Origin: Candidatus Onthomonas avicola
GTDB taxonomy: Bacteria; Bacillota; Clostridia; Oscillospirales; Oscillospiraceae
Assembly (NCBI GenBank): GCA_018710845.1
Contig: DVJB01000019.1
Span: forward strand, 1 to 50,918
Reading direction: 5' to 3'
DNA: 50,918 nucleotides
A model generated the notes under the pieces. It saw only the letters and a list, made by a program, of their open reading frames with translations. It was not told the DNA's origin and did no database searches. The translations under genes and the position numbers were made by a program. Below, in pieces: positions 31,131-50,918 of this stretch (the first letter of the stretch is position 1; each line of letters opens with the position of its first letter).

Positions 31131-31390
31131 GTGTCAAAAAGGTCTCACCGAGTTTGGCTCGAAGAGCCAAATAGAGTCCAATTCATTTTTGGCACGGGCA
31201 TGTACCCCCCAGGGGGCCTTCTCTCGCCCCTACGGGGCGATTCACCTTGACCGGGCCAAAAATACTGATAGTCTCGCAAGTGTGCGACCGAAGGGAGTGT
31301 GACCAAGCCGCCAAAGGTGGCGCGGAAATGCCCCTTGGGTACGCGCAGCGAGACTGCATACTCGCGCAAATGCTTGCATTTGCGCGAAGA
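31131..31390 (+). repeat. Repeat element B1 (260 bp, long form)
   Basis: First of four copies of family B (34562-34734, 46605-46864 reversed, 50733 to window end). It begins GTGTCAAAAAGGTCTCACC. Hairpins: TTTGGCTC/GAGCCAAA; TTTTTGGC/GCCAAAAA enclosing cassette M (31205-31249); AGTCTCGC (31270-31277) with GCGAGACT (31348-31355); and the closing TCGCGCAAATGC/GCATTTGCGCGA (31362-31387). It ends five bases from the hydrolase stop codon. The rest of the 475-base gap holds the treR promoter and a hairpin. Confidence 0.9.
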
Positions 31391-31394
31391 GGGC

Positions 31395-32369
31395 CTAGCC
31401 CTCCAGGAAGGTGAGCACATCCAGCAGGAATTTCTCCAGTGTGGGATTGGCGCTGCGGTAGATCTCGTGCTTGGCGTAGGGATAGACGATCTTCTCCCCT
31501 TTGGGAAGGCGCTCTACCAGCTCGTCCTGCGGCTCGAGCTGGACGATGGTGTCCATGCTGGCCTGGCAGAGCAACACGGGGATGGTCACCTTGTCCGCCT
31601 GGGCGAGGATGGGGTAGCGGACCTGGACTGCCTCCTTGGCCCAGGAGTAGGTGGCGGTGGAGTTCTGGCGGTCCTGGTCCTGGCGCTGGCGCTCGAGGTA
31701 CCAGAGGTAGCGCGCACGGGAGGTGGTACAGTTGTTGGCGGCCCAATGGTCCTGGCCGTCAAAGGGCTTCTGGATGGGAATCCGGTGCTCGCCCCGTCCG
31801 ATGGCACACATGAAGTTCGCCAGCGCGCTGCCCACCAGATCGGGGAAATTGCCCGCCACCGGGGCGACCATCGGGGAGCAGAGGACGGCGCGCGTAAACT
31901 GTCCCGGATAGCGCTCCAGATAGAGCATGGCGATCGCCCCGCCCATAGAGTGGCCGAAGAGATAGCGGGTCTTCCCCTCGGTGCGCGGCAGGACGACCCT
32001 GTCCATCAGATGATGCATATCCTCAATGTACTCGTCAAAGGAGGTGACATGCGTCAGCCAGCGCTCATTGAGCAGGCGATAGGACTTCCCATGCCCCATA
32101 TGGTCGCAGATAAAGACGCCGTATCCCGCCCGCAGGAAGTACCAGATCAGCTCGGAGTACTCCAGCGTGGATTCGGTAAAGCCGTGGCTGATAAACACCA
32201 CGCGCTGACAGCCCTCGTCCGGCGCGTAGTACTCCCAGTAGATGCCAAGACCCGGCTTGCGCTCACAGTGTCCGCTGGCCTGCCGGAGCTGGTCGAGCCG
32301 GAGCAGGAGCCGGTCCATCTCCTCGTCATAGTGTTCTTCCGACAGGAGCTTGAAGGGAAGTTGAGTCAT
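31395..32369 (-). CDS. Alpha/beta hydrolase (lysophospholipase/monoacylglycerol lipase-like)
   Basis: A 324-residue alpha/beta-hydrolase of the Hydrolase_4 type. The oxyanion region is FISHGFTE, the nucleophile elbow GHSMGG has S141, the acid is probably in LLCQASMDTIVQ and the histidine in PYAKHEIYR, so the catalytic triad is complete. There is no signal peptide. Relatives cleave lysophospholipids, monoglycerides or esters. The TAG stop is five bases from repeat element B1, so the transcript would run into it. It is a single-gene unit; substrate unknown. Confidence 0.88.
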   Translation of the reverse strand: MTQLPFKLLSEEHYDEEMDRLLLRLDQLRQASGHCERKPGLGIYWEYYAPDEGCQRVVFISHGFTESTLEYSELIWYFLRAGYGVFICDHMGHGKSYRLLNERWLTHVTSFDEYIEDMHHLMDRVVLPRTEGKTRYLFGHSMGGAIAMLYLERYPGQFTRAVLCSPMVAPVAGNFPDLVGSALANFMCAIGRGEHRIPIQKPFDGQDHWAANNCTTSRARYLWYLERQRQDQDRQNSTATYSWAKEAVQVRYPILAQADKVTIPVLLCQASMDTIVQLEPQDELVERLPKGEKIVYPYAKHEIYRSANPTLEKFLLDVLTFLEG

Positions 32370-32602
32370 AGCAGTTTTGCCTCCAGAAAATCAGTCTTGC
32401 CGCTGCCGGATGACCGTCCGGTGCGCGGATCATATCCAAAGTCTCCCCGGCCGGGCACCCGGCATGGGACATGGTCCTTCGTATGGCGAAGCACTTTTAG
32501 TTAATTCTATTATACTAGTCTTTTCAGAAATGGCAAGAGCTTTTTGAAAATGAGGACGCATTTTTGACTGCCCCACTCCCGCCGCCCGGCTTGCGGGGAC
32601 AG

Positions 32603-32633
32603 AAAAACGCCGGGCGCATTGCTGCGCCCGGCG
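32603..32633 (-). terminator. Terminator of the DUF362 gene
   Basis: An 11-bp stem (CGCCGGGCGCA at 32608-32618 with TGCGCCCGGCG at 32623-32633), followed on the minus strand by TTTTT. It accounts for part of the 290-base gap before the hydrolase gene; the rest shows nothing clear beyond an A/T-rich promoter-like stretch near 32500. Confidence 0.85.
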
Positions 32634-32661
32634 GCAAGAGATTCTGTCTGATGGTGCTGTG

Positions 32662-33540
32662 TCAGCCGTCCAGGCTGACGAGCTCATACTCCCGCGAACC
32701 CAGACCGAGCTGGGCGGCGGCCTCCACGGTGTGGATGCCGTGACGGGACTCCATCCGCTCAATCAGCGCGGCCTTCCCAGAGTCGGGGGACTGATAGACC
32801 GCGTCCACGCAGGCCTGGTCCACCGCGACCGGGTCGAGGGAGGCGAAGATGCCGATGTCCGCCATCTCCGGCTCGTGCGGGTTGGCGTCGCAGTCGCAGT
32901 CCACGCTCAGGCGGTTGGCCACGTTGATATAGACCACGTTCTCCCGGCCCAGGTAGTCCATCACGCTCTCGTCGGCGTCCGCCATCGACTCGAGGAAGTG
33001 GTCCTGCTCGGTGGTGAAGCAGTCCTCAAAGGTGGACCCCTTCCCGGCGGTGTGGATATTGATCTTGCCGTGGGCGGAGGCGACGCCGATGGACATGTTC
33101 TTCAGCGCGCCGCCCAGTCCGGCCATCAGATGGCCCTTGAAGTGGGAGAGGACCAGCATGGACTGGTAATTTGCCAGGTGCGCGCCGACATAGTTCTCCT
33201 TCAGGTGGAAGCCGTTGGCCACCGACAGGGCGATCTCCCCCTCCTCGTCCATAATGTCGCACGGGGCGATGGTGGGGAAGCCGTGCTCCTCAATCGACTT
33301 CCAGTGCTCGGCGGTGGTGTTGCGGCGCCCGGCATAGGCGGTGTTGCACTCGACGATGGTGCCGTTCAGCGCGCCCACCAGCTTGCCGATCAGCCCGGGC
33401 TGCAGGAAGTTGTGCCCGCCCGGCTCGCCGGTGGAGATTTTGACGGCGAGCTTGCCCGGGAGGGTGACGCCGAGCGCCTCATAGGCGCGCATCAGCCCGT
33501 CGGGGGTGAGCTCACGGGTAAAGTAGACCTTGGATTTCAT
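32662..33540 (-). CDS. DUF362 domain protein
   Basis: A 292-residue protein of the DUF362 family, often called a 4Fe-4S or ferredoxin-like protein. Typical segments are VKISTGEPGGHNFLQP, IVECNTAY, SHFKGHLMAGLGGALKNMSIG and GIFASLDPVAVDQACVDAVY. No CxxCxxC cluster motif is present, only a CDCD pair, so the iron-sulfur part found in some relatives is lacking. Start 33540 is favoured over 33549 because GGAGG stands nine bases before it and abuts the earlier ATG. It has a MerR-type promoter whose dyad also occurs at the DUF3842 promoter, which suggests joint control. Confidence 0.88.
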   Translation of the reverse strand: MKSKVYFTRELTPDGLMRAYEALGVTLPGKLAVKISTGEPGGHNFLQPGLIGKLVGALNGTIVECNTAYAGRRNTTAEHWKSIEEHGFPTIAPCDIMDEEGEIALSVANGFHLKENYVGAHLANYQSMLVLSHFKGHLMAGLGGALKNMSIGVASAHGKINIHTAGKGSTFEDCFTTEQDHFLESMADADESVMDYLGRENVVYINVANRLSVDCDCDANPHEPEMADIGIFASLDPVAVDQACVDAVYQSPDSGKAALIERMESRHGIHTVEAAAQLGLGSREYELVSLDG

Positions 33541-33608
33541 CTGTGACATCCTCCTTCGTCACTCCGGCGGCCTTCAGGCCGCGCGCTGTCAGTTCCTTTG
33601 ACAACAGT

Positions 33609-33639
33609 ATTGTACGGCATGGAGTGAACTCCATGTCAA
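33609..33639 (-). promoter_or_regulatory. MerR-type promoter of the DUF362 gene
   Basis: Minus-strand perfect TTGACA (33634-33639) and TACAAT (33609-33614) are 19 bp apart, longer than normal. The spacer holds an 18-bp perfect palindrome CATGGAGT-GA-ACTCCATG (33618-33635). This layout is the hallmark of MerR-family activators, which untwist an overlong spacer. Confidence 0.75.
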
Positions 33640-33687
33640 GCAAAAAACGCCGGAAAAGTTTCGCCGCGTGACGGAGGAGAAAAGCGC

Positions 33688-33926
33688 AGACTGTCGAAAA
33701 GCATGTTTTAAGATTTCAAATGAAGGCGAAAAGTTTAGAAAGCCCTCCGCAGGAGTTTTGTTGCGATAGCAACAAAATAGAGTGAAATTTCGTTTTTGGG
33801 ACGGGCGTGTACCGGCCCAAAAACACAGGGAGGCCGGGAGTGTGCCCCGCAGGGGCGCGCGGTTCGGCCGCACATTTCGAACAAAATCGTAGATTTTGTT
33901 CGAACGTGTCGACAAGGTCGACACGC
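33688..33926 (+). repeat. Repeat element A3 (239 bp, short form)
   Basis: Third copy of family A, in the divergent gap between two MerR-type promoters. AGACTGTC marks the start and the GTCGAC-AAG-GTCGAC hairpin the end. The stem at 33844-33856 is GCCCC-GCA-GGGGC. Cassette M is absent. Unlike A1 and A2, no exact flanking duplication is visible. Confidence 0.88.
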
Positions 33927-33944
33927 CAAGCGGCGGCGCGGGCC

Positions 33945-33974
33945 TTGACTGGAGTGGACTCCATATGCTAGAAT
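33945..33974 (+). promoter_or_regulatory. MerR-type promoter of the DUF3842 gene
   Basis: TTGACT (33945-33950), 18-bp spacer, TAGAAT (33969-33974). The spacer contains the dyad TGGAGT-GG-ACTCCA (33950-33963), matching the core of the dyad at 33618-33635. Confidence 0.7.
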
Positions 33975-33984
33975 CCAAACCAGA

Positions 33985-34452
33985 ATGGACAGGCAGGTGA
34001 AGGAATTGCCCGGAAAGACAGGGGATTATCACATTCTGGTGATGGACGGCCAGGGCGGCGGCATCGGCGTGCGGCTGATCCGGCAGCTGGCCGGCGCGCT
34101 GCCGGAGAACTGCCGGCTGCTGTGCGTGGGCACCAACTCCATGGCCACGGCCAGCATGCTGCGCGCCGGCGCGGCACAGGGGGCCACGGGGGAGAACGCC
34201 GCCTGTGTGCAGGCCGCGCGCGCCGACTTGATCCTCGGCCCGGTGGGCATCGTGCTCGCCGACGGGATCCTGGGCGAGGTCACGGCCCGCATGGCCCAAG
34301 CGGTCTCCTCGTCCGAGGCGGTCAAGATTCTGATCCCGTCCTCCAGCTGCGGCGTGCGCATCGCCGGCGCGGAGGACTGCAAGCTGGAGGACGCGCTGGG
34401 CCGCGCCGTCCGCCTCGCCCTGGAGGAGATTTCCCGCGCAGCGAGTACCTGA
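33985..34452 (+). CDS. DUF3842 family protein
   Basis: A 155-residue protein of the DUF3842 family, conserved in Clostridia, with the signature ILVMDGQGGGIGVRLIRQL at the N-terminus, a Rossmann-like glycine-rich start, followed by CVGTNSMATASML and GPVGIVLADGILGE. Function is unknown. The ATG lies about four bases after the expected transcription start, so the message would be almost leaderless. A TTG at 34006, with AGGTGAAGGA before it, is a real alternative and would still keep the motif. It precedes the lar genes on the same strand, with repeat B2 in between. Confidence 0.82.
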   Translation: MDRQVKELPGKTGDYHILVMDGQGGGIGVRLIRQLAGALPENCRLLCVGTNSMATASMLRAGAAQGATGENAACVQAARADLILGPVGIVLADGILGEVTARMAQAVSSSEAVKILIPSSSCGVRIAGAEDCKLEDALGRAVRLALEEISRAAST

Positions 34453-34561
34453 GACGCGCGCCAGCGCCCCGGCAGAGAGCCGTCGGGCGGAAAACCGGCA
34501 GGAAGCCGGACGGCGCGCCAGGGTTTGTCCTGTCCGAGACGGCATAGCGATAGATAGCAGC

Positions 34562-34734
34562 GTGTCAAAAAAGGTCTCACCGAGTTTGGCTCGAAGAGCC
34601 AAATAGAGTCCAATTCATTTTTGGCACGGGCGTGTACCGGGCCAAAAATACTGATAGTCTCGCAAGTGTGTGAGCGTAGCGAGTGCGCGCAGCGAGACTG
34701 CAAACTCGCGCAAATGCTTGCATTTGCGCGAAGA
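34562..34734 (+). repeat. Repeat element B2 (173 bp, short form)
   Basis: Second family B copy, lacking cassette M and the inner module of B1. The AGTCTCGC (34656-34663) / GCGAGACT (34692-34699) stem and the closing CGCGCAAATG/CATTTGCGCG hairpin are kept. It fills most of the 355-base gap between DUF3842 and larE. Confidence 0.9.
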
Positions 34735-34740
34735 CGATGC

Positions 34741-34784
34741 CAGGAAGGCGTCCGCGCCCCAGCAGGGGTGCAGGCGTCTTCCTG
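34741..34784 (+). promoter_or_regulatory. Branched hairpin in the larE leader
   Basis: CAGGAAG (34741-34747) pairs with CTTCCTG (34778-34784), with GCCCC-AGCA-GGGG nested inside. It lies 23 bases before the larE ATG and has no U-tract; a role in translation control is possible but not shown. Confidence 0.4.
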
Positions 34785-34807
34785 TTGTGCTGTTTGGAGG
34801 GAAAACG

Positions 34808-35563
34808 ATGACCTTGGAGGAATTTTTCGCCGCCCATCCCCGCCCGGCATTGGCCTTTTCCGGGGGGACGGACTCCGCCTTTCTGCTCTGGGCCGCCCGG
34901 CGCTGCGGCTGCCGGGTGCGGGCCTACTATGTCCGCACCCCCTTCCAGCCGGCCTTTGAGCGGCGCGACGCCCTGTGCCTGGCGGAGGAGCTGGATGTGC
35001 CGCTCACGGTGGTGGACGTGGACATCTTCGCCGTGCCGGAGGTGGCGGCCAACGGGCCGGAGCGCTGCTATCACTGCAAGCGCGCCCTCTTCACCCGGCT
35101 GTGGGAGGCGGCGCGCGCGGACGGCTGCGATGTCCTGATGGACGGGACCAACGCCTCGGACGATGCCGCCGACCGCCCCGGGATACGTGCCCTGCGCGAG
35201 CTGGGGGTCCGCTCGCCGCTGCGAGAGTGCGGCGTCACGAAGGAGGAGGTGCGCCGCCGCTCGCGGGAGGCGGGGCTGTTCACCTGGGACAAGCCGGCCT
35301 ATGCCTGCCTGGCCACCCGCGTGCCCACCGGCCGGCCGGTGACCGGGGCGCTGCTGCGCCGCGCGGAGGGGGCGGAGCAGGCCCTCGCGGCGCTGGGCTT
35401 TTCCGATTTCCGCGCCCGCCTGGCGGGGGAGGACATCCGCCTGGAGGTGACCGGGGTGCAGCTCCCGCTCGTCCTGGAGCGGCGGGAGGAGATTGTAAGC
35501 GCGCTGCGGCCCTATGCTGGCCATGTGCTGCTCGACCTGGCAGGCCGGCAGCCGTCACGATGA
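34808..35563 (+). CDS. larE: Sulfur transferase LarE (nickel-pincer cofactor synthesis)
   Basis: A 251-residue PP-loop ATPase. The pyrophosphatase loop is [10 protein letters not shown] (17-26). LarE adenylates the carboxylates of the pyridinium dicarboxylate made by LarB and then gives up the sulfur of its own cysteine. That residue is C167 here, in the conserved [14 protein letters not shown] segment. Other conserved parts are [14 protein letters not shown] and [14 protein letters not shown]. The enzyme is cytosolic. TGGAGGGAAAACG precedes the ATG. It heads a chain of genes (larE, larB, larC, ABC transporter) with overlapping or nearly overlapping ends. Confidence 0.93.
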
Positions 35564-35576
35564 GGAGGGGGAAACT

Positions 35577-36347
35577 TTGGACAACCGACATGACATTCTC
35601 GCCCTGCTGCGCGCCGTCGCGGCGGGTCAGACCGCCCCGGAGGACGCCCTGCTCGCGCTCAAGCAGGAGCCGTTTGCCGACCTGGGCTATGCGAAGGTGG
35701 ACTTTCACCGCGCCGTGCGCCAGGGCGCGGGGGAGGTGATCTACGGCGCGGGCAAGACCCCGGAACAGATCGCCGGCATCGCCGCGGCGATGGGGGAGCG
35801 GGGCTGCCGGAATATCCTCATCACCCGGATGGGGGAGGAGGCGGCGCGCCAGGTGGCCCAGGCCGTCCCGCTGGAATACCACGCTGTGGCGCGCCTCGGC
35901 GTCGCCCATCCCGCCCCGCGGCGGCAGGTGGGGCAGATCGTGGTCGCCACCGGCGGCACGAGCGACCAGCCGGTGGCGGAGGAGGCCGCCCTCACCGCCG
36001 AGGTGCTGGGCAACCGCGTCACCCGGCTCTATGACGTCGGCGTGGCCGGGCTGCACCGCCTGCTCTCCCAGCTCGACGTGCTCATGCGCGCGCGCTGCGT
36101 GATCGCCGTGGCGGGGATGGAGGGGGCACTCGCCTCGGTGGTCGGCGGTCTGGTGGACTGCCCGGTGATCGCGGTGCCCACCAGCGTGGGCTACGGGGCG
36201 AGCTTTGGCGGCCTGTCCGCCCTGCTGTCCATGCTCAACTCCTGCGCCTCGGGGTGCAGCGTGGTGAATATCGACAACGGCTTCGGCGCGGGCTATCTCG
36301 CCAGCCGGATCAATCAGATGGAAGGATGCAAGGAGGAGACGGAATGA
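35577..36347 (+). CDS. larB: Pyridinium-3,5-bisthiocarboxylate mononucleotide synthesis enzyme LarB
   Basis: A 256-residue enzyme that carboxylates nicotinate adenine dinucleotide at C5 and hydrolyses it, the first step to the nickel-pincer cofactor. The C-terminal half is AIRC/PurE-like ([64 protein letters not shown]), and the conserved NSC motif with the nucleophilic cysteine follows. The TTG at 35577 is taken as the start: GAGGAGGGG lies six bases before it and the larE stop is 13 bases upstream. Its stop overlaps larC by four bases (ATGA). Confidence 0.92.
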
Positions 36348-37651
36348 AGACGCTCTATCTGGAGTGCTCCATGGGCGCGGCGGGCGACATGCTGCTGGCG
36401 GCCCTCTACGAACTGCTGGAGGACAAGGACGGATTTTTGCAGACCATGAACGGCCTCGGCCTGCCCGGCGTGGCGGTCGCGGCCGAGCGGGGCGCGACCT
36501 GCGGCATCGCCGGGACCCATATGCGCGTGACCGTCCACGGCCGCGAGGAGGACGAGGGGCAGGACGGCGGCCATGCCCATCCCGATCATGGGCATGGGGA
36601 GGACCATGTCCACGATCACCACGCGCACGATCACGGCCATGACCATGCGCACGATCATGCCCACGATCACGATCATGCGCATCATCACCACCACGCCACG
36701 CCGGGGGAGATCGGCGCGCTGATCGACCGCCTCCCCCTCCCGGAGGAGGTGCGCGCCGACGCGCGCGCGGTCTACGACGCGATCGCCCGCGCCGAGGCGG
36801 AGGCCCACGGCTGCCCGGTGGGGGACGTGCACTACCACGAGGTGGGCGCGCTGGACGCAGTGGCGGACGTGACCGGCGTGTGCTACGCTCTCTCTCTGCT
36901 CCGCCCGGAGCGGATCGTTGTCTCCCCGGTCCACGTCGGCAGCGGCACGGTCCGCTGCGCGCACGGCGTCCTGCCGGTGCCCGCGCCCGCGACGGCGAAC
37001 CTGCTGCGCGGCGTGCCGGTCTACGGCGGCGCGGTGCAGGGGGAGCTGTGCACCCCCACCGGGGCGGCGCTGCTGACCCACTTTGCCGACGCCTTCGGCC
37101 CGATGCCGCCGATGGCGGCCGAGCGAGTGGGCATCGGCATCGGCAGCCGGACCTTCCCACAGGCCAACTGCCTGCGCGCCTTCTGGGGCGAGTCGGCCGG
37201 GGAGCGGGGCGAAATTGTCGAGCTGGTGTGCAACCTGGACGACATGACGCCGGAGGCCCTCGCGTTTGCCTGCGAGAGGCTCCTCGAGCAGGGCGCGCTG
37301 GACGTATACACCACGCCGGGCACGATGAAGAAGGGCCGGGCGGGCCAGGTGCTCACCGTCTTGTGCGCGCCCGAGCGGGAGGGGGAGCTGGCCCGCGCCG
37401 TCCTGCGCGAGACGGCCAGCAACGGCCTGCGCGCGCGCCGGTGCGGCAAGTATTTCCTGACCCCCGGCAGCGCCGAGGTGGAGACCCGCTGGGGCGCCGT
37501 CCGGATCAAGACGGCGGAGGGCTGCGGCATCACCCGCGCCAAGCCGGAGTATGAGGACGCCGCCCGCCTGGCCCGGGCGCACCAGGTCCCCTACGCCGAG
37601 GTGGCCCAGGAGGCCCTGGAGCGCTACCGCCGGAGGGAGGGGCACCGTTGA
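36344..37651 (+). CDS. larC: Nickel-inserting cyclometallase LarC, one reading frame
   Basis: A 435-residue enzyme that inserts nickel into the cofactor precursor using CTP. The start [18 protein letters not shown] is typical. Residues 77-117 are an extraordinary run with 22 histidines in 41 residues, likely nickel binding. The later domains include [29 protein letters not shown] and [13 protein letters not shown]. In Lactobacillus larC is split in two frames joined by frameshifting; here one uninterrupted frame encodes both halves. It overlaps larB by four bases and the transporter lipoprotein gene by four bases. Confidence 0.94.
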
Positions 37652-39285: not shown

Positions 39286-39331
39286 ACGCGGCGCATCTGC
39301 CGGGGCAAGGGAACGGAAGGGAGGAGCCCAG

Positions 39332-41151: not shown

Positions 41152-41163
41152 GAGGTGGGACGG

Positions 41164-42701: not shown

Positions 42702-42717
42702 GACGAATAAAAAAGCA

Positions 42718-42743: not shown

Positions 42744-42777
42744 CAAAATATCAGACAGATGAAGTTGTGCGCCGTGC

Positions 42778-43227
42778 TCAGCCGGTAAAGCCGTAGTCCC
42801 CGTCGTCGTCCTTCTCCGAGGTCTCGGGGGCGGGGGGCGCCTCCTCGGCGGGGGCCTCCTCCGGCGCGGCTTCCGCCTCGGCCTCCTCCGCTTCGACCTC
42901 CACCTCGACGGCGACCTCGGGGGAGACCTTCAGCTCGGCGATCTTGGCGTTGTTGGCGGCGATGGCCGCCTGGATGTCCCCAATCAGGGAGCAGACGGAG
43001 ACATACGCCTCGTCCGGGTCGGCGCCGTGGTCGGCGAAATACATCTTGCCCAGCTCCACATAGGCGGCGCGCAGATTGCTCTCCTCCTTCAGGTTGGAGG
43101 CGCGCAGCTTGGCGATGGCGGCGAGCTGGATGCTCTTGTCCACGCCGGTCTGGGCCATGTTCAGGCCGGTCTGCCCGAGCGCGGCCGCCCTTTTCTTCAG
43201 TTCGTCCATATTGACCGTGAATGCCAT
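42778..43227 (-). CDS. Helical protein with long acidic Ala/Glu/Pro tail, unknown
   Basis: A 149-residue protein I do not recognise by name. Residues 1-100 are helical (MDELKKRAAALGQTGLNMAQ, AAIAKLRASNLKEESNLRAAYVELGKMYFADHG) and resemble the phasin-like small proteins common in Clostridia, which often carry zinc ribbons or tails. From about residue 103 the protein is almost wholly E, A, P and V and ends DDDGDYGFTG. No membrane segment or signal peptide is present. A good GAGGAGG stands before the ATG at 43227. It is a single-gene unit. Confidence 0.75.
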   Translation of the reverse strand: MAFTVNMDELKKRAAALGQTGLNMAQTGVDKSIQLAAIAKLRASNLKEESNLRAAYVELGKMYFADHGADPDEAYVSVCSLIGDIQAAIAANNAKIAELKVSPEVAVEVEVEAEEAEAEAAPEEAPAEEAPPAPETSEKDDDGDYGFTG

Positions 43228-43394
43228 AGTAGTTCCTCCTCTGTGGCAAAATATTTTTTGTCCGGATGAACTTATTGTACTGTCTGGGACAGAAAAGCGC
43301 AAGCGATTTTTCCCGGTTTTCATCCATTTTTAATTTGTTTTTCAAAAACATCTGCCGTTCGCCGCGATCTGACCGACTTTTCGAAAGAGAAGAT

Positions 43395-43427
43395 GTCCGG
43401 GCAGGAGGCATTCCCTCCTGCCCGGAC
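43395..43427 (-). terminator. Terminator of thrS
   Basis: A 14-bp perfect stem (GTCCGGGCAGGAGG / CCTCCTGCCCGGAC) 17 bases past the thrS stop on the minus strand, followed by a T/C-rich tract. Confidence 0.8.
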
Positions 43428-43443
43428 AACGGGACAAGCGTTA

Positions 43444-45192
43444 TCAGCGAATCGCCTTGCTCTCCACTTCCTCGCGCAGCAGGGAGGTGAAGTCCTCCCA
43501 GCTCATCGCGCCGAGGTCCTTGCCCGAGCGGTGCCGGGGGGAGACGGTGCGGTTTTCCATGTCCTTGTCGCCCACCACGAGCATATAGGGCACCTTCTGG
43601 CCCTGGGCCTCGCGGATCTTGTAGCCCAGCTTCTCGCTGCGGTGGTCCACCTCCACGCGGAAGCCCGCGGCGGTGAGGGCGCGCTCCACCTCGTCGGCGT
43701 AGGCCGAGGCGCGGTCGGTGACTGGCAGGACCTTCACCTGTACCGGGGCGAGCCAGGCGGGGAAGGCGCCGCCGAAGTGCTCCGTGATCACGCCGATGAA
43801 GCGCTCGATGGAGCCGAGGACCACGCGGTGGATCATCACCGGGCGGTGCTTCTCGCCGTCTGCGCCGGTGTACTCCAGCTCAAAGCGCTCCGGCAGCTGC
43901 ATGTCCAGCTGGATGGTGCCGCACTGCCAGGTGCGGCCGAGGGAGTCGGCCAGGTGGAAGTCCAGCTTGGGGCCGTAGAACGCGCCGTCGCCCTCATTGA
44001 TGACGAAGCTCTTGCCCATCTCGCTGATGGCCTCCTTGAGCGTCTCCTGGGCGAATTCCCAGTCCTTCTCGTCGCCCATGTGGTCCTCCGGCATGGTGGA
44101 CAGCTCGATCTGATAGCTCAGGCCGAAGACGGAGTACACCTCGTCAAAGAGGCGGACGACGTTTTTGATCTCGTCCTTCATCTGGTCCCAGGTCATGAAG
44201 ATGTGCGCGTCGTCCTGGGTGAAGCAGCGCACGCGGAACAGCCCGTGCAGCGCGCCGGAGAGCTCATGCCGGTGCACCAGGCCGAGCTCGCCCACGCGCA
44301 GCGGCAGGTCGCGGTAGGAGTGCGGCTCGGACTTATACACCAGCATGCCGCCCGGGCAGTTCATCGGCTTGATGGCGAAGTCCTCGCCGTCGATAACGGT
44401 GGTGTACATGTTCTGCTTGTAGTGATCCCAGTGGCCGGAGCGCTCCCAGAGCTGGCGGTTTAAGATCATGGGGGTGGAGATCTCCACGTAGCCGTAGCGC
44501 TTGTGCACCTGGCGCCAGTAGTCGATCAGCGTATTGCGCAGCACCATGCCCTTGGGCAGGAAGAAGGGGAAGCCGGGGCCCTCCTCCATCAGGGTGAACA
44601 GGCCGAGCTCTTTGCCGAGCTTGCGGTGGTCGCGGCGCTTGGCCTCCTCCAGCTTGGCCAGGTACTCGTCCAGCTGGTCCTTCTTGGGGAAGGCGATGCC
44701 GTAGATGCGCTGGAGGGTCTCCCGGTTGGAGTCGCCGCGCCAGTAGGCGGCGTTGCAGGCGGTGAGTTTGATCGCGTTGCCCTTCACGCGGCCGGTGGAG
44801 TCCAGGTGCGGGCCGGCGCACAGGTCGGTGAACTCGCCCTGCTTGTAAAACGAGATGGGCTCGCCCTCCGGCAGGTCGCGGATGAGCTCGAGCTTGAACG
44901 GCTCGTCCTTCATCAGCTCCAGCGCCTCCTCCCGGGGCAGTTCAAAGCGCTCGATCTTCAGCTTCTCCTTGCAGATCTTGCGCATCTCGCCCTCGAGCTG
45001 CTCCATGATCTCCGGCGTGAAGGGGAAGGGGGAGTAGAGGTCGTAGTAAAAACCGTTGTCGATCGCCGGGCCGATGGCCAGCTTGACCTCGGGGTACAGG
45101 CGCTTGACCGCCTGGGCCAGGATGTGGGAGCAGGAGTGCCAGTAAGTGTGGCGGTACTCCGGGTTGTCAAAGGTGAATTGGTTGTCTGCCAT
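43444..45192 (-). CDS. thrS: Threonyl-tRNA synthetase without the TGS domain
   Basis: A 582-residue class II synthetase that charges tRNA-Thr. The editing domain begins almost at once with HSCSHILAQAVKRLYP and the class II core has CPGGMLVYKSEPHSYRDLPLR (motif 2 region) and FTQDDAHIFM. The C-terminal anticodon domain (LAPVQVKVLPVTDRASAYADEV) is complete. Usual length is about 640, because an N-terminal TGS domain precedes the editing domain; here that part is absent. The ATG at 45192 has AAGGAGG before it. A T-box leader upstream controls it by uncharged tRNA-Thr. Confidence 0.95.
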   Translation of the reverse strand: MADNQFTFDNPEYRHTYWHSCSHILAQAVKRLYPEVKLAIGPAIDNGFYYDLYSPFPFTPEIMEQLEGEMRKICKEKLKIERFELPREEALELMKDEPFKLELIRDLPEGEPISFYKQGEFTDLCAGPHLDSTGRVKGNAIKLTACNAAYWRGDSNRETLQRIYGIAFPKKDQLDEYLAKLEEAKRRDHRKLGKELGLFTLMEEGPGFPFFLPKGMVLRNTLIDYWRQVHKRYGYVEISTPMILNRQLWERSGHWDHYKQNMYTTVIDGEDFAIKPMNCPGGMLVYKSEPHSYRDLPLRVGELGLVHRHELSGALHGLFRVRCFTQDDAHIFMTWDQMKDEIKNVVRLFDEVYSVFGLSYQIELSTMPEDHMGDEKDWEFAQETLKEAISEMGKSFVINEGDGAFYGPKLDFHLADSLGRTWQCGTIQLDMQLPERFELEYTGADGEKHRPVMIHRVVLGSIERFIGVITEHFGGAFPAWLAPVQVKVLPVTDRASAYADEVERALTAAGFRVEVDHRSEKLGYKIREAQGQKVPYMLVVGDKDMENRTVSPRHRSGKDLGAMSWEDFTSLLREEVESKAIR

Positions 45193-45472
45193 GGGAAATT
45201 GCCTCCTTATCGCGTGTTTCGGGGCGGGAGACAAAAATCCCACCCCTGACGGACATCAGGGGTGGGATGAAGGTTCATCTCACGGTTCCACCCTGCTTGA
45301 CGCGCCGCGCGGCGCGCCCGCTCTTTGGCCGCTGTAACGTGCGGACACGGCAGGCTTGTCTTCACCTGCGGCTCCGGGGCGGTGTCACCGGTTCGGGCGC
45401 AAGGCGCTTACAGCACATGGCGCCTCTCTCTGGCCGCTCTTCGCGGATTCGTCCCCATCAAAGCCAATTTAC
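45193..45472 (-). ncRNA. T-box riboswitch leader of thrS
   Basis: The conserved T-box element reads AGGGTGGAACCGTGAG on the minus strand (complement of about 45280-45295). Next is a strong terminator, the stem TCCCACCCCTGA/TCAGGGGTGGGA with TTTTT (about 45235-45270). Stem I features are visible upstream: AGAGAGGCGCC with GCTGTAAGCGCC, then GGAGCC. Candidate threonine specifiers are ACC or ACA in CCGAACCGGTGACACC; I cannot fix which. Uncharged tRNA-Thr would favour the antiterminator. Confidence 0.9.
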
Positions 45473-45478
45473 CCGTTT

Positions 45479-45506
45479 ATTATAACAGCTCGCACCGGAT
45501 TGTCAA
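45479..45506 (-). promoter_or_regulatory. Promoter of the thrS T-box transcript
   Basis: Minus-strand perfect TTGACA (45501-45506), 16-bp spacer, perfect TATAAT (45479-45484). Confidence 0.85.
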
Positions 45507-45585
45507 GGGGAGAAAGGGAAGAAGCCGCGCTGGCCGTTTCCGGATTTTGCATTTTTAAGACAGAAAAATGGGCCGAATGGCAACG

Positions 45586-45618
45586 AAAAGCCGCCTCTCA
45601 TAACGAGAAGCGGCTTTT
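45586..45618 (-). terminator. Terminator after tRNA-Gly
   Basis: AAAAGCCGCCTCTC (45586-45599) pairs with GAGAAGCGGCTTTT (45605-45618) with one mismatch. On the minus strand TTTTCGTT follows. Confidence 0.85.
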
Positions 45619-45621
45619 GTA

Positions 45622-45695
45622 TGGAGCAGGTGAAGGGAATCGAACCCTCGTGGCCAGCTTGGGAAGCTGGAGTTCTGCCATTGAACTACACCTGC
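45622..45695 (-). tRNA. tRNA-Gly, anticodon CCC
   Basis: A 74-base tRNA including an encoded CCA (complement of TGG at 45622-45624). The 7-bp acceptor is GCAGGTG/CACCTGC. The anticodon stem CCAGC/GCTGG closes the loop TTCCCAA, anticodon CCC, reading GGG. The T arm carries the usual GGTTCGATTCC. Read on the minus strand. Confidence 0.95.
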
Positions 45696-45764
45696 CCGTT
45701 TAGGGCAAGGAGTATTATACCACCTCGCCCGCGGACTTGCAAGGGGAATTTTGCCGGAATGCGC

Positions 45765-46544
45765 TCACTTTTTCCGCCGGCCCTGGTTTTTTTCGTAGAG
45801 AATCTGCAGCCCCTGGATGAGCAGGTCGGGCTCGAGGTGGATTTCCCGCCGGCAGTGCGGGGCCACCAGCGTGCCCAGACCACCGGTGAGGATGGCGGTG
45901 ACCGGCTGGCCCAGCTCCGCCTCCACCCGGTCCACCATGCCGTCGATCATGGAGGCGCAGCCGTAGATCGCGCCGGACTGCATGCAGTCCACCGTGTTGC
46001 TGCCGATCAGGCGGGCGGGGGCGGCGAAGTTGATATAGGGCAACTGCGCCGCGCGGGCGGACAGCGCGTCCACCGACACGCGCAGGCCGGGGATAATCGC
46101 CCCGCCGATATAGCTGCCCGCCGCGTCGATGACCGACATGGTGGTCGCCGTGCCCATGTCAAAGAAGACGATGGGGGCGGGATACTTGGCCAGGGCGGCC
46201 ACCGCGTCCACCACCATGTCGCTGCCGAGCTGGGCGGGGTTGTCCATGCGGATGTTCAGCCCGGTCTTGAGGCCGGAGCCGACGACGAGAATCTCCTTGC
46301 CGGTGAGCTGGTAGACCGCCTTGGGGACAACCGTGCGCAGAATGGGCACCACAGAGGAGAGGATGCCGCCCTCAATCTCCCGCGGGTCGACGCCGCGCAT
46401 CTGCAAGATTCCCTGGATGGTCAGGGCGTACTCGTCCTCCGTCTTGTTCCGGTCGCTCGCGCAGCGGGCGGAGAAGACCTGACGGCCGTTCTCGATGCCG
46501 CCGAGGACGATATTGGTGTTGCCGATGTCGATGGCCAGAATCAT
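45765..46544 (-). CDS. coaX: Type III pantothenate kinase
   Basis: A 259-residue kinase for the first step of coenzyme A synthesis. This form needs a monovalent cation and is not inhibited by CoA. Family motifs: DIGNTNIVLGG (phosphate loop) at the N-terminus, FFDMGTATTMSVIDAAGSYIGGAIIPGL, RLIGSNTVDCMQSG and ILTGGLGTL. The ATG at 46544 has only a GTGGGGGC stretch upstream, a weak site. Repeat element B3 lies just upstream of the start, so the promoter may be inside or beyond it. Confidence 0.95.
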   Translation of the reverse strand: MILAIDIGNTNIVLGGIENGRQVFSARCASDRNKTEDEYALTIQGILQMRGVDPREIEGGILSSVVPILRTVVPKAVYQLTGKEILVVGSGLKTGLNIRMDNPAQLGSDMVVDAVAALAKYPAPIVFFDMGTATTMSVIDAAGSYIGGAIIPGLRVSVDALSARAAQLPYINFAAPARLIGSNTVDCMQSGAIYGCASMIDGMVDRVEAELGQPVTAILTGGLGTLVAPHCRREIHLEPDLLIQGLQILYEKNQGRRKK

Positions 46545-46576
46545 GGCACATGCCCCCACTTTCTTCCGGGCAAAGA

Positions 46577-46604
46577 GGCTGTCAAAAAAGTATTTTTGAC
46601 AGCC
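46577..46604. promoter_or_regulatory. A/T-rich hairpin beside element B3
   Basis: GGCTGTCAAAAA (46577-46588) pairs with TTTTTGACAGCC (46593-46604), a perfect 12-bp stem lying between coaX and the end of B3. It may be a terminator for the upstream phosphatase gene or part of the element. Confidence 0.6.
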
Positions 46605-46864
46605 TTCCGAGCAAATGCAGGCATTTGCTCGGAGTTTGCAGTCCCACTGCGCGTACCCAAAGGGCATTTCCGCGCCGCCTTTGGCGGCTTGGTCACACTC
46701 CCTGCGCTCGCACACTTGTGGGACTATCAGTATTTTTGGCCCGGTCAAGGTGAATCGCCCCGCAGGGGCGAGAGAGGGCCCCCTGGGGGGTACATGCCCG
46801 TGCCAAAAATGAATTGGACTCTATTTGGCTCTTTGAGCCAAACTCGGTGAGACCTTTTTTGATA
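46605..46864 (-). repeat. Repeat element B3 (260 bp, long form, reversed)
   Basis: Third family B copy, on the minus strand. Cassette M is at 46746-46790. The core stem is AGTCCCAC/GTGGGACT (46640-46647 with 46718-46725), against AGTCTCGC/GCGAGACT in B1. The closing hairpin is CCGAGCAAATGC/GCATTTGCTCGG against CGCGCAAATGC/GCATTTGCGCG. It fills the 351-base gap between coaX and the inositol-phosphatase-like gene. Confidence 0.9.
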
Positions 46865-46895
46865 CTCTGATATTCTATCCCTTTTCCGCCGGTTG

Positions 46896-47693
46896 TCAAC
46901 CGCCTTTTTCCGTCCCCCGCAGCAGCGAGAGCGCCTGGGCGTGAATCAGGCCGTTGGTCACCAGGATGTCGGCGTTCTCCAATGGGCAGAGTCGTCCGCC
47001 GTCCATCGTGGTGCACACGCCGCCGGCCTCGCGGATGATGAGCTGCCCGGCCGCGTAGTCCCAGGGCTTGAGGTTGTACTCAAAGTACAGCTCCGCCCGC
47101 CCGGCGGCCACCCGGCACAGATCGATCGCCGCGCTGCCGCCCCGGCGCAGGTCCTCCGTGTGCAGGTAGAGGCGCTTGAGGCTGTCAAACAGCGCGTCCG
47201 CCCGCTCGGCCTTCTCATAAGGGGAGGAGCCGAAGATGGCGAGGCTGTGGCCGAGGTCGGCGCGGCCGCTGCACCGGATGCGCTCGCCGTTGCAGCGGCT
47301 GCCCATCCCCCGTGTGGCGGAGAAGACCTCCTCCCGGAATGGGTTGTACACCACGCCGAGCACCACCTCGCGCCCGTCCCAGAGGGCGAGGGAGACCGCG
47401 CTCTCCCCGTAGCCGTGGACCAGGTTGGCCGTGCCGTCGATGGGGTCTAAGATCCACATCGGCCGGTCGGGCCGGCGGGCGACGGCGCCCTCCTCCTCGC
47501 CCATGAACTGGATGCCGGGCCACCGCTCGCCCAGCTGCCGGGAGAGGGTGTGCTGCACGGCGAGGTCGGTGGCCGTGACGTAGTTGGCCGCGCTCTTCTC
47601 GTGCACGTCGGCCGCGCCGGTGCGGTCGAGAATCAGCGGCCGCAGAGCGCGCACCAGGCGGATGACCTCGCGCTCGGAGATGATCTGCTGCAT
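46896..47693 (-). CDS. Inositol monophosphatase family protein
   Basis: A 265-residue metal-dependent phosphatase of the IMPase/CysQ/FBPase superfamily. Key motifs are GEEEG (metal-binding glutamate), WILDPIDGTANLVHG with the catalytic aspartates, and WDYAAGQLIIREAGG near the end. All metal ligands are present. Such enzymes act on inositol phosphate, PAP or sugar phosphates; specificity is not clear. The ATG at 47693 has GGAGG eleven bases upstream and a conserved family start, so the longer in-frame version through the repeat region is rejected. Confidence 0.9.
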   Translation of the reverse strand: MQQIISEREVIRLVRALRPLILDRTGAADVHEKSAANYVTATDLAVQHTLSRQLGERWPGIQFMGEEEGAVARRPDRPMWILDPIDGTANLVHGYGESAVSLALWDGREVVLGVVYNPFREEVFSATRGMGSRCNGERIRCSGRADLGHSLAIFGSSPYEKAERADALFDSLKRLYLHTEDLRRGGSAAIDLCRVAAGRAELYFEYNLKPWDYAAGQLIIREAGGVCTTMDGGRLCPLENADILVTNGLIHAQALSLLRGTEKGG

Positions 47694-47765
47694 GGCGTTG
47701 TTGTCCTCCTGTTTCTCTGTATCAGATGGTGCCGCCCCCCCGGTGCCCGGCGGGCACATCGGGCC

Positions 47766-48203
47766 GCCGTAAAACGCAACAACCGTAGGGACGCATCGCA
47801 TGCGCCCGTGCCGGTCAATGCTGCCGCGTTCGCGGGCGCACGAAGTGCGCCCCTACGACATGGAAAGGTAATTTGAGGTTGCCGTAAAACGCAACAACTG
47901 TAGGGACGCATCGCATGCGCCCGTGCCGGTCAATGCTGCCGCGTTCGCGGGCGCACGAGGTGCGCCCCTACGGCATGGAAAGGTAATTTGAGGTTGCCGT
48001 AAAACGCAACAACCGTAGGGGCGCATCGCATGCGCCCGTGCCGGTCAATGCTGCCGCGTTCGCGGGCGCACGAAGTGCGCCCCTACGGCATGGAAAGGTA
48101 ATTTGAGGTTGCCGTAAAACGCAACAACTGTAGGGACGCATCGCATGCGCCCGTGCCGGTCAATGCTGCCGCGTTCGCGGGCGCACGAAGTGCGCCCCTA
48201 CGG
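47766..48203. repeat. Repeat array C: 115-bp tandem repeats with inverted ends
   Basis: Three full 115-bp units (starting 47766, 47881, 47996) and a fourth partial unit (48111-48203). Each holds an inverted-repeat body from CCGTAGGG(A/G)CGCAT to GTGCGCCCCTACGG, with inner hairpins CGCATCGCATGCG and GCGCACGAAGTGCGC, and a spacer GCATGGAAAGGTAATTTGAG. Units differ by only a few bases. It fills the 528-base gap between the IMPase-like gene and the ROK kinase gene; I see no gene in it. Confidence 0.93.
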
Positions 48204-48221
48204 TGCGGTGGGACGGGCCGG

Positions 48222-49175
48222 TCAGATACGCGGCATGTCCAGCAGTGCCGCGCCGATGATGCCGGCGTCGCCGCCGAGCTGAGCCTTGACAAAGCGGGTG
48301 GACTGCACCCCCTGGCGCACGCGGGTGCGCTCGGCCACCATCGCCTGGAGGGGGTGAAGCAGGTTCTCCTCCCGCTCGTTGGCCACGCCGCCGCCCAGGC
48401 AGATCAGCTCGGGGGAGAAGATGTTCACCGCGTTGGCCAGCCCGTCGGCGAGGTAGGAGAGGTAGCGCTCCGTCAGCTCCCGGGCCGCCGCGTCCCCCGC
48501 CTCCATCGCCAGGAAGGAGGTCCGCCCGCTCACCCGCCCGAGGTCCCCGCCGCACAGGTCCCACATGGCGCTCTCCGGGTGCGATCGCATCTGTTCGCGC
48601 GTCATGCGCTTGAGCGCGGTGGCGGAGGAGTACTGCTCCCAGCAGCCCTGCCGCCCGCAGGGGCAGGGGACCCCGTCGTGCTCGATCACCATATGTCCGA
48701 TCTCGGTGCCCTGCAGGCGGATGCCGTTGGCGGTCTTGCGCAGGTAGCTGCCGCCCACGCCGGTGCCGAGGGTGAACATCATCATAAACGGGCTGTCCCG
48801 CCCGCAGCCGGCCAGGCCCTCGCCCAGCACGGCACAGCAGGCGTCGTTTTCCAGATAGACCTCCACCGGCCACAGCCGCTGAAAGAGCGCGCGCACCGGC
48901 GTGTGGTCAAACGGGGCGTTGACCGTCTTGACGGCCACGCCGGCCGCGTCGTCTACCATGCCGGGCACGCCGATGCCGACGGCGCGCACCTGCTCCGGCG
49001 GCAGGCCCGCTGTCTCGACCGCCTGCCGGGCGATCCGGACCAATCCGGTCACCGTCTCCTCCCCCGTGTCGAAGACGCTCGCCCGGACCTTGGCCTTGGC
49101 GATGATCCGGTTGTGCTCGTCCACCACGCCGGCGACCAGGTTGGTGCCGCCGACGTCAATCCCGATGCGCACCAT
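48222..49175 (-). CDS. ROK-family sugar kinase (glucokinase-like)
   Basis: A 317-residue ROK kinase. It starts GIDVGGTNLVAGVVDEHN (ATP phosphate loop), then GIGVPGMVD, ENDACCAVLGE (catalytic aspartate), the zinc motif EIGHMVIEHDGVPCPCGRQGCWEQ and the adenine-site GGGVA. Cysteines of CxCGxxGC are intact, which marks a kinase and not a bare repressor; no N-terminal HTH is present. Glucose or another hexose is the likely substrate. It follows hprK on the same strand, consistent with a sugar-metabolism role. A hairpin resembling a B-element end lies between them. Confidence 0.92.
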   Translation of the reverse strand: MVRIGIDVGGTNLVAGVVDEHNRIIAKAKVRASVFDTGEETVTGLVRIARQAVETAGLPPEQVRAVGIGVPGMVDDAAGVAVKTVNAPFDHTPVRALFQRLWPVEVYLENDACCAVLGEGLAGCGRDSPFMMMFTLGTGVGGSYLRKTANGIRLQGTEIGHMVIEHDGVPCPCGRQGCWEQYSSATALKRMTREQMRSHPESAMWDLCGGDLGRVSGRTSFLAMEAGDAAARELTERYLSYLADGLANAVNIFSPELICLGGGVANEREENLLHPLQAMVAERTRVRQGVQSTRFVKAQLGGDAGIIGAALLDMPRI

Positions 49176-49222
49176 GCGCGCCGCCCCCTCTCTGGTCCGT
49201 CAAAGACGCCCTTGACGGCCTT

Positions 49223-49246
49223 GGAGCAAATGCCTGCGCTTGCTCC
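49223..49246. repeat. Solitary hairpin resembling the closing hairpin of family B
   Basis: GGAGCAAATGC and GCGCTTGCTCC (49223-49246) match the GAGCAAATGCctGCATTTGCTC end hairpin of B3 closely but stand alone. It lies in the 88-base gap between hprK and the ROK gene and may be a relic. Confidence 0.5.
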
Positions 49247-49263
49247 GGTCCTGCGCGCCCGCC

Positions 49264-50217
49264 TCAGAGCATTCCGTTTTCGGCGAGCTGCTGGTCAAAA
49301 TGCGCGTTGATCTGATCGGTGAATTCCTTGGCTGCGTTGTAGCCCATCTTCTTGTGGCGGTTGTTCATGGCGGCCACCTCGATGACGACGGCGAGGTTGC
49401 GCCCCGGCTTGACTGGGATGGTCAGCGTCGGCAGCTGCACGTCTAAAATGGAGGTGTACAGGCTCTCCAGCCCGAGGCGGTCGTAGAGCATGCCCTCCTT
49501 CCACAGCTCCAGGTTGATGACCATATTGATCTCCTGGCTATCCTTGACGGCGGACATGCCGAACAGCCGCCGCACGTCGATCACGCCGATGCCGCGCAGC
49601 TCGACGTAGTAGCGGATCAGCTCGGGGGCCATGCCGGTCAGGGAGTTGGCGCCGGAGCGGCGGATCTCCACCGCGTCGTCCGCGATCAGCCGGTGGCCGC
49701 GCTTGATGAGCTCCACCGCCGTCTCGCTCTTGCCCACGCCGCTCTCGCCGAGCAGCAGCACGCCCTCGCCGTAGATCTCCAGCAGCACCCCGTGGCGGGT
49801 GATGCGCGGGGCCAGGGCGTTGTTCAGATAGGTGATCAGGCTGGTCTGGAGCGCGGCGGTGTTCTGGTCGCTGCGCAGGAGGGGGCGGTTATACTTTTCC
49901 GCCGCCGCCAGGCATTCCGGAAAGATGTCCAGGTTGCGCGCGATGATGACCGCCGGGATGGGCCGGGAGAGGAGCGCGTCAAACCGGCTCTGCCGCTCCT
50001 CCGGGTCGAGCCCGGTGAGATAGGTCCACTCCACCATCCCCAGCAGCTGGATCCGCTCATTGTCAAAGTAATCGTAAAAGCCGACCAGCTGCAGTCCGGG
50101 CCGGTTGATGCTCGGCTTATAGATACGGGTCTTCTCGTCCTTGGGGCCGCCGCGGATCACCTGCAGGTTGAACTCCTTGATCAGGACACCCAATTCCACG
50201 TAATAGCCTCGTTCCAA
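49264..50217 (-). CDS. hprK: HPr kinase/phosphorylase
   Basis: A 317-residue bifunctional enzyme that phosphorylates or dephosphorylates Ser46 of HPr and so sets carbon catabolite repression in Firmicutes. Walker A is GESGVGKSETA; the family loop LIADDAVEIRR and IGVIDVRRLFG follow, and the C-terminal helix YNAAKEFTDQINAHF is complete. The start is a TTG at 50217 with AAAGGAGG eight bases before it. An ATG six bases earlier on the strand is in another frame and stops after 13 codons. It fits the trehalose PTS in the same window. Confidence 0.95.
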   Translation of the reverse strand: MERGYYVELGVLIKEFNLQVIRGGPKDEKTRIYKPSINRPGLQLVGFYDYFDNERIQLLGMVEWTYLTGLDPEERQSRFDALLSRPIPAVIIARNLDIFPECLAAAEKYNRPLLRSDQNTAALQTSLITYLNNALAPRITRHGVLLEIYGEGVLLLGESGVGKSETAVELIKRGHRLIADDAVEIRRSGANSLTGMAPELIRYYVELRGIGVIDVRRLFGMSAVKDSQEINMVINLELWKEGMLYDRLGLESLYTSILDVQLPTLTIPVKPGRNLAVVIEVAAMNNRHKKMGYNAAKEFTDQINAHFDQQLAENGML

Positions 50218-50255
50218 GCCATCCGCCTCCTTTGAGCGTTCGTCTGGTTTACTTT

Positions 50256-50284
50256 AGTATAACGGGTTTTCATATCTTTGGCAA
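50256..50284 (-). promoter_or_regulatory. Promoter of hprK
   Basis: Minus-strand TTGCCA (50279-50284), 17-bp spacer, TATACT (50256-50261). Confidence 0.7.
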
Positions 50285-50353
50285 CGTTTTCTTTCCGGAC
50301 ACGGCCGCTTTTTCCGCCGGACAGGGCGGCGAAGAAAAAATTGACGCCGGGGG

Positions 50354-50382
50354 TTGATTTTTGGCGCGCGATCTGATAAAAT
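50354..50382 (+). promoter_or_regulatory. Promoter of rpmB
   Basis: TTGATT (50354-50359), 17-bp spacer, TAAAAT (50377-50382), 41 bases before the start codon. Confidence 0.65.
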
Positions 50383-50423
50383 AACTGACGCTGTTGATTT
50401 GATTTAGCGAGGAGGTTATGCAA

Positions 50424-50609
50424 ATGGCTAAGTGCGACTTTTGCGGCAAGGGCGTTGTGTTCGGCATTCAGGTTTCCCACTCTCACCGCCGCTCCAACCG
50501 CCCCTGGAAGCCCAACGTGAAGCGCGTCAAGGCGGTCGTGAATGGCACCCCCACCCACGTCTATGCCTGCACGCGGTGCCTCCGTTCCGGTAAAGTCGAG
50601 CGCGCCTGA
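50424..50609 (+). CDS. rpmB: 50S ribosomal protein L28, cysteine-containing form
   Basis: A 61-residue ribosomal protein of the large subunit. The start at 50424 is preferred over the ATG at 50418, because GGAGG is eight bases from the former and only two from the latter. Family marks are VSHSHRRSNRPWKPNVKRVK and the C-terminal LRSGKVERA. Two pairs of cysteines, CDFC and CTRC, would make a zinc ribbon, so it is the C-plus type. The gene is single, with its own promoter and terminator. Confidence 0.95.
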   Translation: MAKCDFCGKGVVFGIQVSHSHRRSNRPWKPNVKRVKAVVNGTPTHVYACTRCLRSGKVERA

Positions 50610-50626
50610 GGGCGGGCTGACAAACA

Positions 50627-50660
50627 CACCTCTCCGCTCGGGAAGGCGGAGGGGTGTTTT
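50627..50660 (+). terminator. Terminator of rpmB
   Basis: CACCTCTCCGC pairs with GCGGAGGGGTG (one wobble) and is followed by TTTTGTT. Confidence 0.85.
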
Positions 50661-50732
50661 GTTATGTTGTGGACAGGATACCCTGGCAAAAACGCTGCTA
50701 TGGGTATAAAAAGGCGGCCGGATGGGTATCAG

Positions 50733-50918
50733 ATTGTCAAAAAGGTCTCACCGAGTTTGGCTCGAAGAGCCAAATAGAGTCCAATTCATTTTTGGCACGG
50801 GCGTGTACCGGGCCAAAAATACTGATAGTCCGGCAAGTGTGCGGATTTTTGGAACAAAAATCCGTGCGCGCAGTCGGACTGCAAACTCGCGCAAATGCTT
50901 GCATTTGCGCGAAAGGCT
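50733..50918 (+). repeat. Repeat element B4 (cut by window end)
   Basis: Fourth family B copy. Cassette M is absent. The core stem is AGTCCGGC (50827-50834) with GTCGGACT (50873-50880), which pairs fully if one G-U wobble is allowed. Between its arms sits a different hairpin, CGGATTTTTG/CAAAAATCCG (50842-50864), not found in the other copies. The closing CGCGCAAATG hairpin is near the window edge. Confidence 0.88.

Follow-up and report, generated by a model that had tools for sequence, protein, structure and literature searches.

The window analyzed here is the whole of contig DVJB01000019.1 (50,918 nucleotides (nt), forward strand; assembly GCA_018710845.1) from Candidatus Onthomonas avicola, a member of the Oscillospiraceae in the class Clostridia, and it contains a family of short, structured intergenic elements. 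A preliminary description, made from the letters alone, had pointed to four copies at 31131, 34562, 46605 (reversed) and 50733, with a common order of hairpins and changes in both arms of their stems. The positions proved right and the common order was confirmed: the core stem reads AGTCTCGC/GCGAGACT in two copies, AGTCCCAC/GTGGGACT in a third and AGTCCGGC/GTCGGACT (one wobble) in the fourth, and the closing hairpin is changed in both arms in the 46605 copy. Not listed there were three diverged members in the window, about 57 near-full-length copies in the genome, and duplicated hairpins that flank the element, nor was the element described as mobile. From left to right, the element consists of a left end (GTGTCAAAAA(A)GG or a close variant; typically CAGACTGTC(A/G)AAAAA), the stems P1 and P2, a two-level P3/P4 and P5; some copies have a further hairpin at the end, P6. 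The members found in the window, and one module within them, are as follows.

31131–31388, + strand: group B1 copy whose P2 carries an extra module; the left end starts at 31131 and the core spans 31143–31388; flanking duplication not found.
31204–31249, + strand: extra hairpin module within the P2 loop of that copy (ACCCCCCAGGGGGCC...ATTCACCTTG); its 3' part is confined to the element in the window (3 of 3 matches).
34562–34732, + strand: compact group B1 copy; core 34575–34732; RNA fold z-score −4.96; flanking duplication not found.
46577–46869, − strand: group B1 copy that has both the extra module and, at its right end, hairpin P6 (GGCTGTCAAAAATACTTTTTTGACAGCC); core 46606–46852; flanking duplication not found.
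50733–50918, + strand: group B1 copy truncated by the contig end; core 50746–50913; right flank too short for the duplication test.
7773–7931, + strand: core of a group B2 member, diverged but built on the same plan; a 32-nt hairpin is duplicated around it.
24899–25102, + strand: core of another diverged member of group B2, with an extra module in the P2 loop; a hairpin of about 36 nt is duplicated around it.
33746–33904, + strand: core of a third diverged member of group B2; flanking repeat of only 15 nt, below threshold.

The architecture is constant over strongly diverged sequence (52 copies from the genus and 40 from outside it were compared). The arms of P1 differ by group, reading TTTGGCTC/GAGCCAAA, TTCCGCCC/GGGCGGAA, TTTTGTTGC/GCAACAAAA or TTTTGCCGC/GCGGCAAAA. 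P2 is mostly capped by a CRUGY loop with a G.A or A.G closing pair; in the 98 of 101 aligned rows that are lettered at both columns, this pair is GA in 58, AG in 30, AT in 10 and AA or GG in none. The 46 rows from outside the genus give AG in 28, GA in 16 and again no AA or GG, the loop being absent in two. One group within the genus carries a different P2 loop (GAATTCA or alike); 11 GCATGGA matches in a simple loop count were judged false, as they come from P3, and that count was set aside. Some copies contain the extra hairpin module, placed at varying points of the P2 loop. In P4, one U.G pair is retained in all 101 rows, and a tandem G.A flanked by covarying pairs was found in 56 of 159 by a simple pattern that misses others, some groups having a plain helix. 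The median length between flanking repeats is 217 nt (n = 83), and a transposase gene is absent. In one related genome (G031), a lone end hairpin (CAGGCTGTCAAAAACAGTTTTTTGACACGCTG) follows a matching gene at about 1395–1460 of locus L218 and is itself followed by a terminator-like hairpin (by eye); it is perhaps a minimal or deleted copy.

The same genome holds many further copies. A DNA search with 85 nt of the element gave 46 matches, pieces included, and a covariance model (R1, E ≤ 0.001) gave 84, including contig-end pieces and possibly opposite-strand echoes. Among the 66 matches listed, we count 57 as near full length and 9 as partial; the remaining 18 may include opposite-strand echoes, as seen at single loci. 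Several contigs of this assembly end within or just past a copy (the window at 50918, as well as L006, L007, L009, L013, L020, L021, L023 and L027); the repeat thus seems to interrupt the assembly, and the number of copies may be an underestimate. With the source genome counted, 21 of the 32 genus genomes matched model R1; model R2, rebuilt from 76 copies, matched 164 of 300 genomes and 72 of 106 genera of the taxonomic family. Farther out, model R2 matched 36 of 295 genomes of the order, 18 of them from six other families, and 3 of 391 genomes of the class, all three belonging to the source genome's own taxonomic family. Only 9 (family), 10 (order) or 7 (class) candidates were scored per genome, so copy numbers there are lower bounds.

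The preliminary description had not recognized the family. A known terminator or repetitive extragenic palindromic (REP) family that explains the stems would have refuted its proposal; in Rfam, none did. A scan of the window against Rfam 15 returned transfer RNA (tRNA) only, with no match on the element, and a scan of seven element loci (E up to 5) returned six matches, none overlapping a core; tRNA and ZTP matches adjoin the element. At one locus (L149, 717–796, +), a ZMP/ZTP riboswitch match over the gathering score lies near an element. The titles and abstract openings returned by searches of open-licence papers contained no description of such an element. Five unannotated faecal phage records (MT836293, MT836333, MT835961, MT838885 and MT838551) match 22–48% of one element at 75–87% identity, and viral contigs scanned with one exact pattern gave no match.

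Evidence for mobility comes from the flanks. Flanking repeats could be evaluated for 152 of 160 copies, 8 being too near a contig end. At a score of at least 28, they were found in 72 of 113 evaluable copies from the genus versus 6 of 942 mismatched flank pairs, and in 13 of 39 copies from outside the genus versus 3 of 582 mismatched pairs. Strong repeats (score of at least 32) flank 83 of the 152 copies. By a lax rule, 79 of these 83 repeats hold a hairpin, although 200 of 500 random 34-mers also pass; by fold energy (at or below −18 kcal/mol), the contrast is 62 of 83 repeats versus 14 of 1000 random 32-mers from the window. The hairpins also have a polarity: the stretch past the right hairpin is T-rich (at least 4 of 8) on the outer side in 47 of 79 cases versus 10 of 79 on the element side, and the stretch before the left hairpin is A-rich on the outer side in 48 of 79 versus 8 of 79. 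Judging by this outer T- and A-richness, the element splits a terminator-like hairpin, leaving one on each outside. Being short, lacking a transposase gene and bearing target site duplications in 83 of 152 copies, the element agrees in these respects with a miniature inverted-repeat transposable element (MITE). At one locus (L207), the duplicated stretch of 28 nt resembles a gene end and not a hairpin; hairpins may therefore be preferred but perhaps not required. In three other cases (L143, L178 and L183), the left and right copies of the flanking hairpin carry the loop in opposite orientations, and by eye the same is seen at L040 and at L157, an IS1182 locus; this is perhaps a trace of hairpin copying or flipping.

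An unoccupied site was sought with the joined flanks of the 7773 copy, which gave no junction-spanning match in 32 genomes; the two flanking genes were matched apart. In one of these genomes (G007), a single plain hairpin resembling a terminator stands at the end of the matching downstream gene (by eye). When the flanks of 55 copies from the source genome were compared with those of 19 copies (of 48 matches) from G031, two one-sided matches were the only ones obtained, and most insertions therefore seem not to be shared. Between these genomes, copies of different subfamilies (L003 and L120) stand beside a 96.5% identical left flank with a similar hairpin, which represents either a single old insertion event or two such events at the same site. 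A larger, autonomous version bounded by a far repeat was found for none of 68 copies, within flanks of at most 1.4 kb.

Copies lie mostly 3' of genes. For the 107 of 120 copies with both neighbors called, the neighboring genes are convergent in 38, tandem in the sense orientation in 30, tandem in the antisense orientation in 34, and divergent in 5; the neighbors are codon-bias calls, with a training set chosen on codon-position guanine-cytosine content, and not annotation. This hairpin-rich, intergenic, 3' setting is what ordinary terminators or REP-like repeats would show, but the span of 217 nt between repeats, the five ordered stems, the separate hairpin duplicated around the element and the lack of an Rfam match make that explanation very improbable. 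The element might instead be a family of trans-acting small RNAs that regulate host genes, with the element ends merely a vehicle. Its conservation through 72 of the family's 106 genera and its recurrent loop motif would fit such a role; the many copies at many different terminator-like hairpins and their near-even orientation to tandem genes do not, and we regard it as improbable.

A possible source of the transposase was found among IS1182-type insertion sequences (IS). Two loci from the same taxonomic family (L157 and L158) contain long transposase frames scoring over the IS1182 model cut-off; their ends read CAGACTGTCGAAAAAC and CAGTTTGTCAAAAAA, and each transposase gene is bracketed by a duplicated hairpin (35 and 31 nt, respectively). 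Within the genus, a hairpin together with CAGCCTGTCAAAAAA marks the left junction of the loci L046 and L047. Ends and target are thus common to the element and autonomous IS1182 at L157 and L158 and at the left junctions of L046 and L047.

Whether the interior is selected was assessed from alignments. In A1, an alignment by sequence only of 28 of 41 cores (a core was excluded if it exceeded 185 nt or exactly repeated another), 98.9% of the cells in stems are paired versus 94.6% after shuffling, and changes on both sides are seen in 12 of 49 pairs. Covariation scores 0.144 in A1, versus 0.062 for shuffled alignments and at most 0.039 with partners slid. In A3 (76 copies from the genus), 97.9% of cells pair versus 75.4% shuffled and 38 of 49 pairs change on both sides; in A4 (43 family and order rows), the corresponding values are 95.6% versus 69.8% and 45 of 49. 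The covariation scores of 0.58 (A3) and 0.64 (A4) compare with 0.17 for shuffled alignments and at most 0.11 with partners slid. P3 pairs most weakly (89.7% of cells in A3, 85.0% in A4). Two rows of A4 come from cut matches and one from a weak antisense echo, and a further alignment (A5) contains one cut match.

All alignments except A1 were fitted to the covariance model, which favors structure, and relatedness inflates shuffle tests; a tree-aware null was therefore used. Our own script, written in the manner of R-scape, was applied to a model-fitted alignment of 101 rows with 1929 substitutions on a FastTree tree and 60 simulated alignments. At E < 0.05, it found 28 covarying column pairs: 26 belong to the structure, accounting for 26 of the 49 stem pairs, and the other two are the P2 loop closing pair and one unexplained pair beside P3. 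The preliminary description had proposed a maintained folded structure, of either RNA or single-stranded DNA, on the strength of four copies and had named the absence of covarying pairs in a wider alignment as its refutation. Significant covariation was instead found, and the proposal is now supported well beyond those four copies.

The mismatches tell which strand folds. G.T/G.U outnumber A.C cells by 77 to 8 (23 to 3 when counted as pairs), beside 85 other mismatch cells, and the + strand gives the more stable fold in 88 of 100. In the compact copy at 34562, the reverse strand also folds well (z-score −4.56), although this fold lacks the P3/P4 stem. The predominance of G.T/G.U over A.C, together with the U.G pair present in 101 of 101 rows, shows that folding takes place in the element's + strand. 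Taken alone, this asymmetry does not distinguish RNA from single-stranded DNA. Together, covariation and strand asymmetry support a + strand fold, most likely formed as RNA, that is maintained by selection.

Paired changes might also arise without any function, through self-correction of DNA hairpins in which template switching at replication copies one arm onto the other. P5, a near-perfect palindrome, has the strongest covarying pairs, and the inverted flank loops described above suggest that flipping may occur here. Correction of this kind should have removed the G.U pairs of P4, which are instead retained; nor would it yield the swap of G.A for A.G in the P2 loop pair, which is not a product of palindrome correction. 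The long-range P3 stem covaries too, and an excess of GT over AC is not expected from a strand-blind process. Palindrome correction as the sole cause of the covariation is thus contradicted, and an origin of the paired changes in self-correction appears unlikely overall.

A tentative possibility is that the fold works not as RNA but as single-stranded DNA, for instance by serving the transposase as a substrate on the lagging strand. G.T is a good mismatch in single-stranded DNA as well, the hairpin ends and hairpin targets would fit a transposase that reads DNA hairpins, and the mixed orientation of copies to genes is compatible with a role in DNA. Tandem G.A and loop G.A, on the other hand, are typical of RNA, and on several contigs the copies have no one-way strand orientation (C29 and C22 are mixed; by eye, among the matches listed, with replication direction not tested). 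IS1272, an IS1182-family member, reportedly targets DNA secondary structures (PMC4923244), which also speaks for a DNA substrate.

On balance, the element is probably a non-autonomous mobile element that is moved by an IS1182-type transposase, inserts into and duplicates terminator-like hairpins, and carries a selected internal fold. The transposase would act in trans, as the shared ends and the two shared target duplications suggest. Insertion into a terminator-like hairpin duplicates the whole hairpin, as about half of the copies show in their flanks, and the outer hairpin copies, which tend to keep their T-tracts, may continue to terminate transcription. The interior consists of P1, P2 with its CRUGY loop in most groups, P3/P4 with fixed G.U pairs, and a P5 or P6 end hairpin. 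As to the job of this fold, our guess is specific recognition by a protein that aids spread or makes the element tolerable in 3' untranslated regions. A further-reaching version, which we regard as doubtful, sees an RNA-dependent mobile element in which the fold itself does the work: a conserved RNA acting in trans, found in several families of an order and at tens of copies in certain genomes, would bind a transposase or another protein and direct or license insertion at terminators, a role comparable to that of bridge RNAs and omega RNAs but different in kind.

Several observations weigh against movement by an IS1182-type transposase into terminator-like hairpins. Strong flanking repeats are absent from 69 of the 152 evaluable copies, including the three evaluable ones of the four first described. 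The terminal inverted repeats, though present, are short and eroded, with a median score of 7 versus 4 for shuffled and non-inverted ends (n = 83). Fourteen of the 16 family IS1182 loci inspected lack the hairpin duplication; in the genus, the right flank of L047 is a different hairpin, L046 runs to the contig end, and L048 has no end motif. The element fold was found in none of 28 IS1182 loci. The source genome (72 contigs) has one truncated IS1182 gene only, with no match over the cut-off, and IS1182 (E ≤ 1e-60) occurs in 19 of 200 family genomes, 16 over the cut-off, compared with 164 of 300 for the element. Moreover, the even orientation among tandem genes leaves no obvious role for an RNA made by read-through from one strand.

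If the preferred reading is right, a Clostridia order harbors an abundant, structured, non-coding element for which Rfam 15 has no entry. The element would be a mobile one with an internal RNA or single-stranded DNA fold selected across families, which would make the purpose of a MITE interior testable. It would also suggest a mode of transposition that duplicates a whole terminator hairpin and may thereby render insertion harmless to the neighboring genes.

Other mobile intergenic repeats with stable RNA folds are bcr1 of the Bacillus cereus group, ERIC and NEMIS/Correia. To our knowledge, these have other ends, short target duplications and no terminator targeting, unlike the present element. 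Group IIC introns likewise insert at terminators, but they are ribozymes with a reverse transcriptase, and we know of no target duplication by them; no Rfam intron match was found on the window or the seven scanned element loci.

The closest likeness is to IS1272 and TnSha1, whose reported targets are hairpins, several of them terminators (PMC4923244; PMC5678879). IS1272 belongs to the IS1182 family and reportedly makes blunt cuts and leaves no target duplication (PMC4923244), whereas here the whole hairpin is duplicated; going by these published descriptions, this seems a difference that sets the element apart. Within the IS1182 family more broadly, some IS loci in the genus and family have the element's ends, but none of 28 has its fold, and the element in turn has no transposase gene. 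BOX, RUP and SPRITE of Streptococcus pneumoniae are likewise small, interspersed, non-autonomous repeats with strong predicted folds, BOX being modular (PMC3049150; PMC10969869). Their reported range is the pneumococcus, S. mitis and, rarely, other streptococci (PMC3049150). No word beginning with "compensatory" or "covar" occurs in the available text of that paper, nor is IS1182 mentioned in that of the review (PMC10969869); the present fold, by contrast, is covariation-tested, spans several families and has a hairpin target. The seekRNAs of IS110/IS1111 offer a further parallel, as a structured RNA accompanies an IS that picks special targets (PMC11187229). In that system, the RNA is reported to derive from the IS and to guide it, whereas here the IS1182 loci lack the fold and the target seems to be defined by shape.

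Two other features were observed in the window. A tRNA-Gly(ccc) gene lies at 45622–45695 on the − strand, near the 46605 copy, and a tandem array with a period of 115, 3.8 copies and 97% matches occupies 47766–48203.

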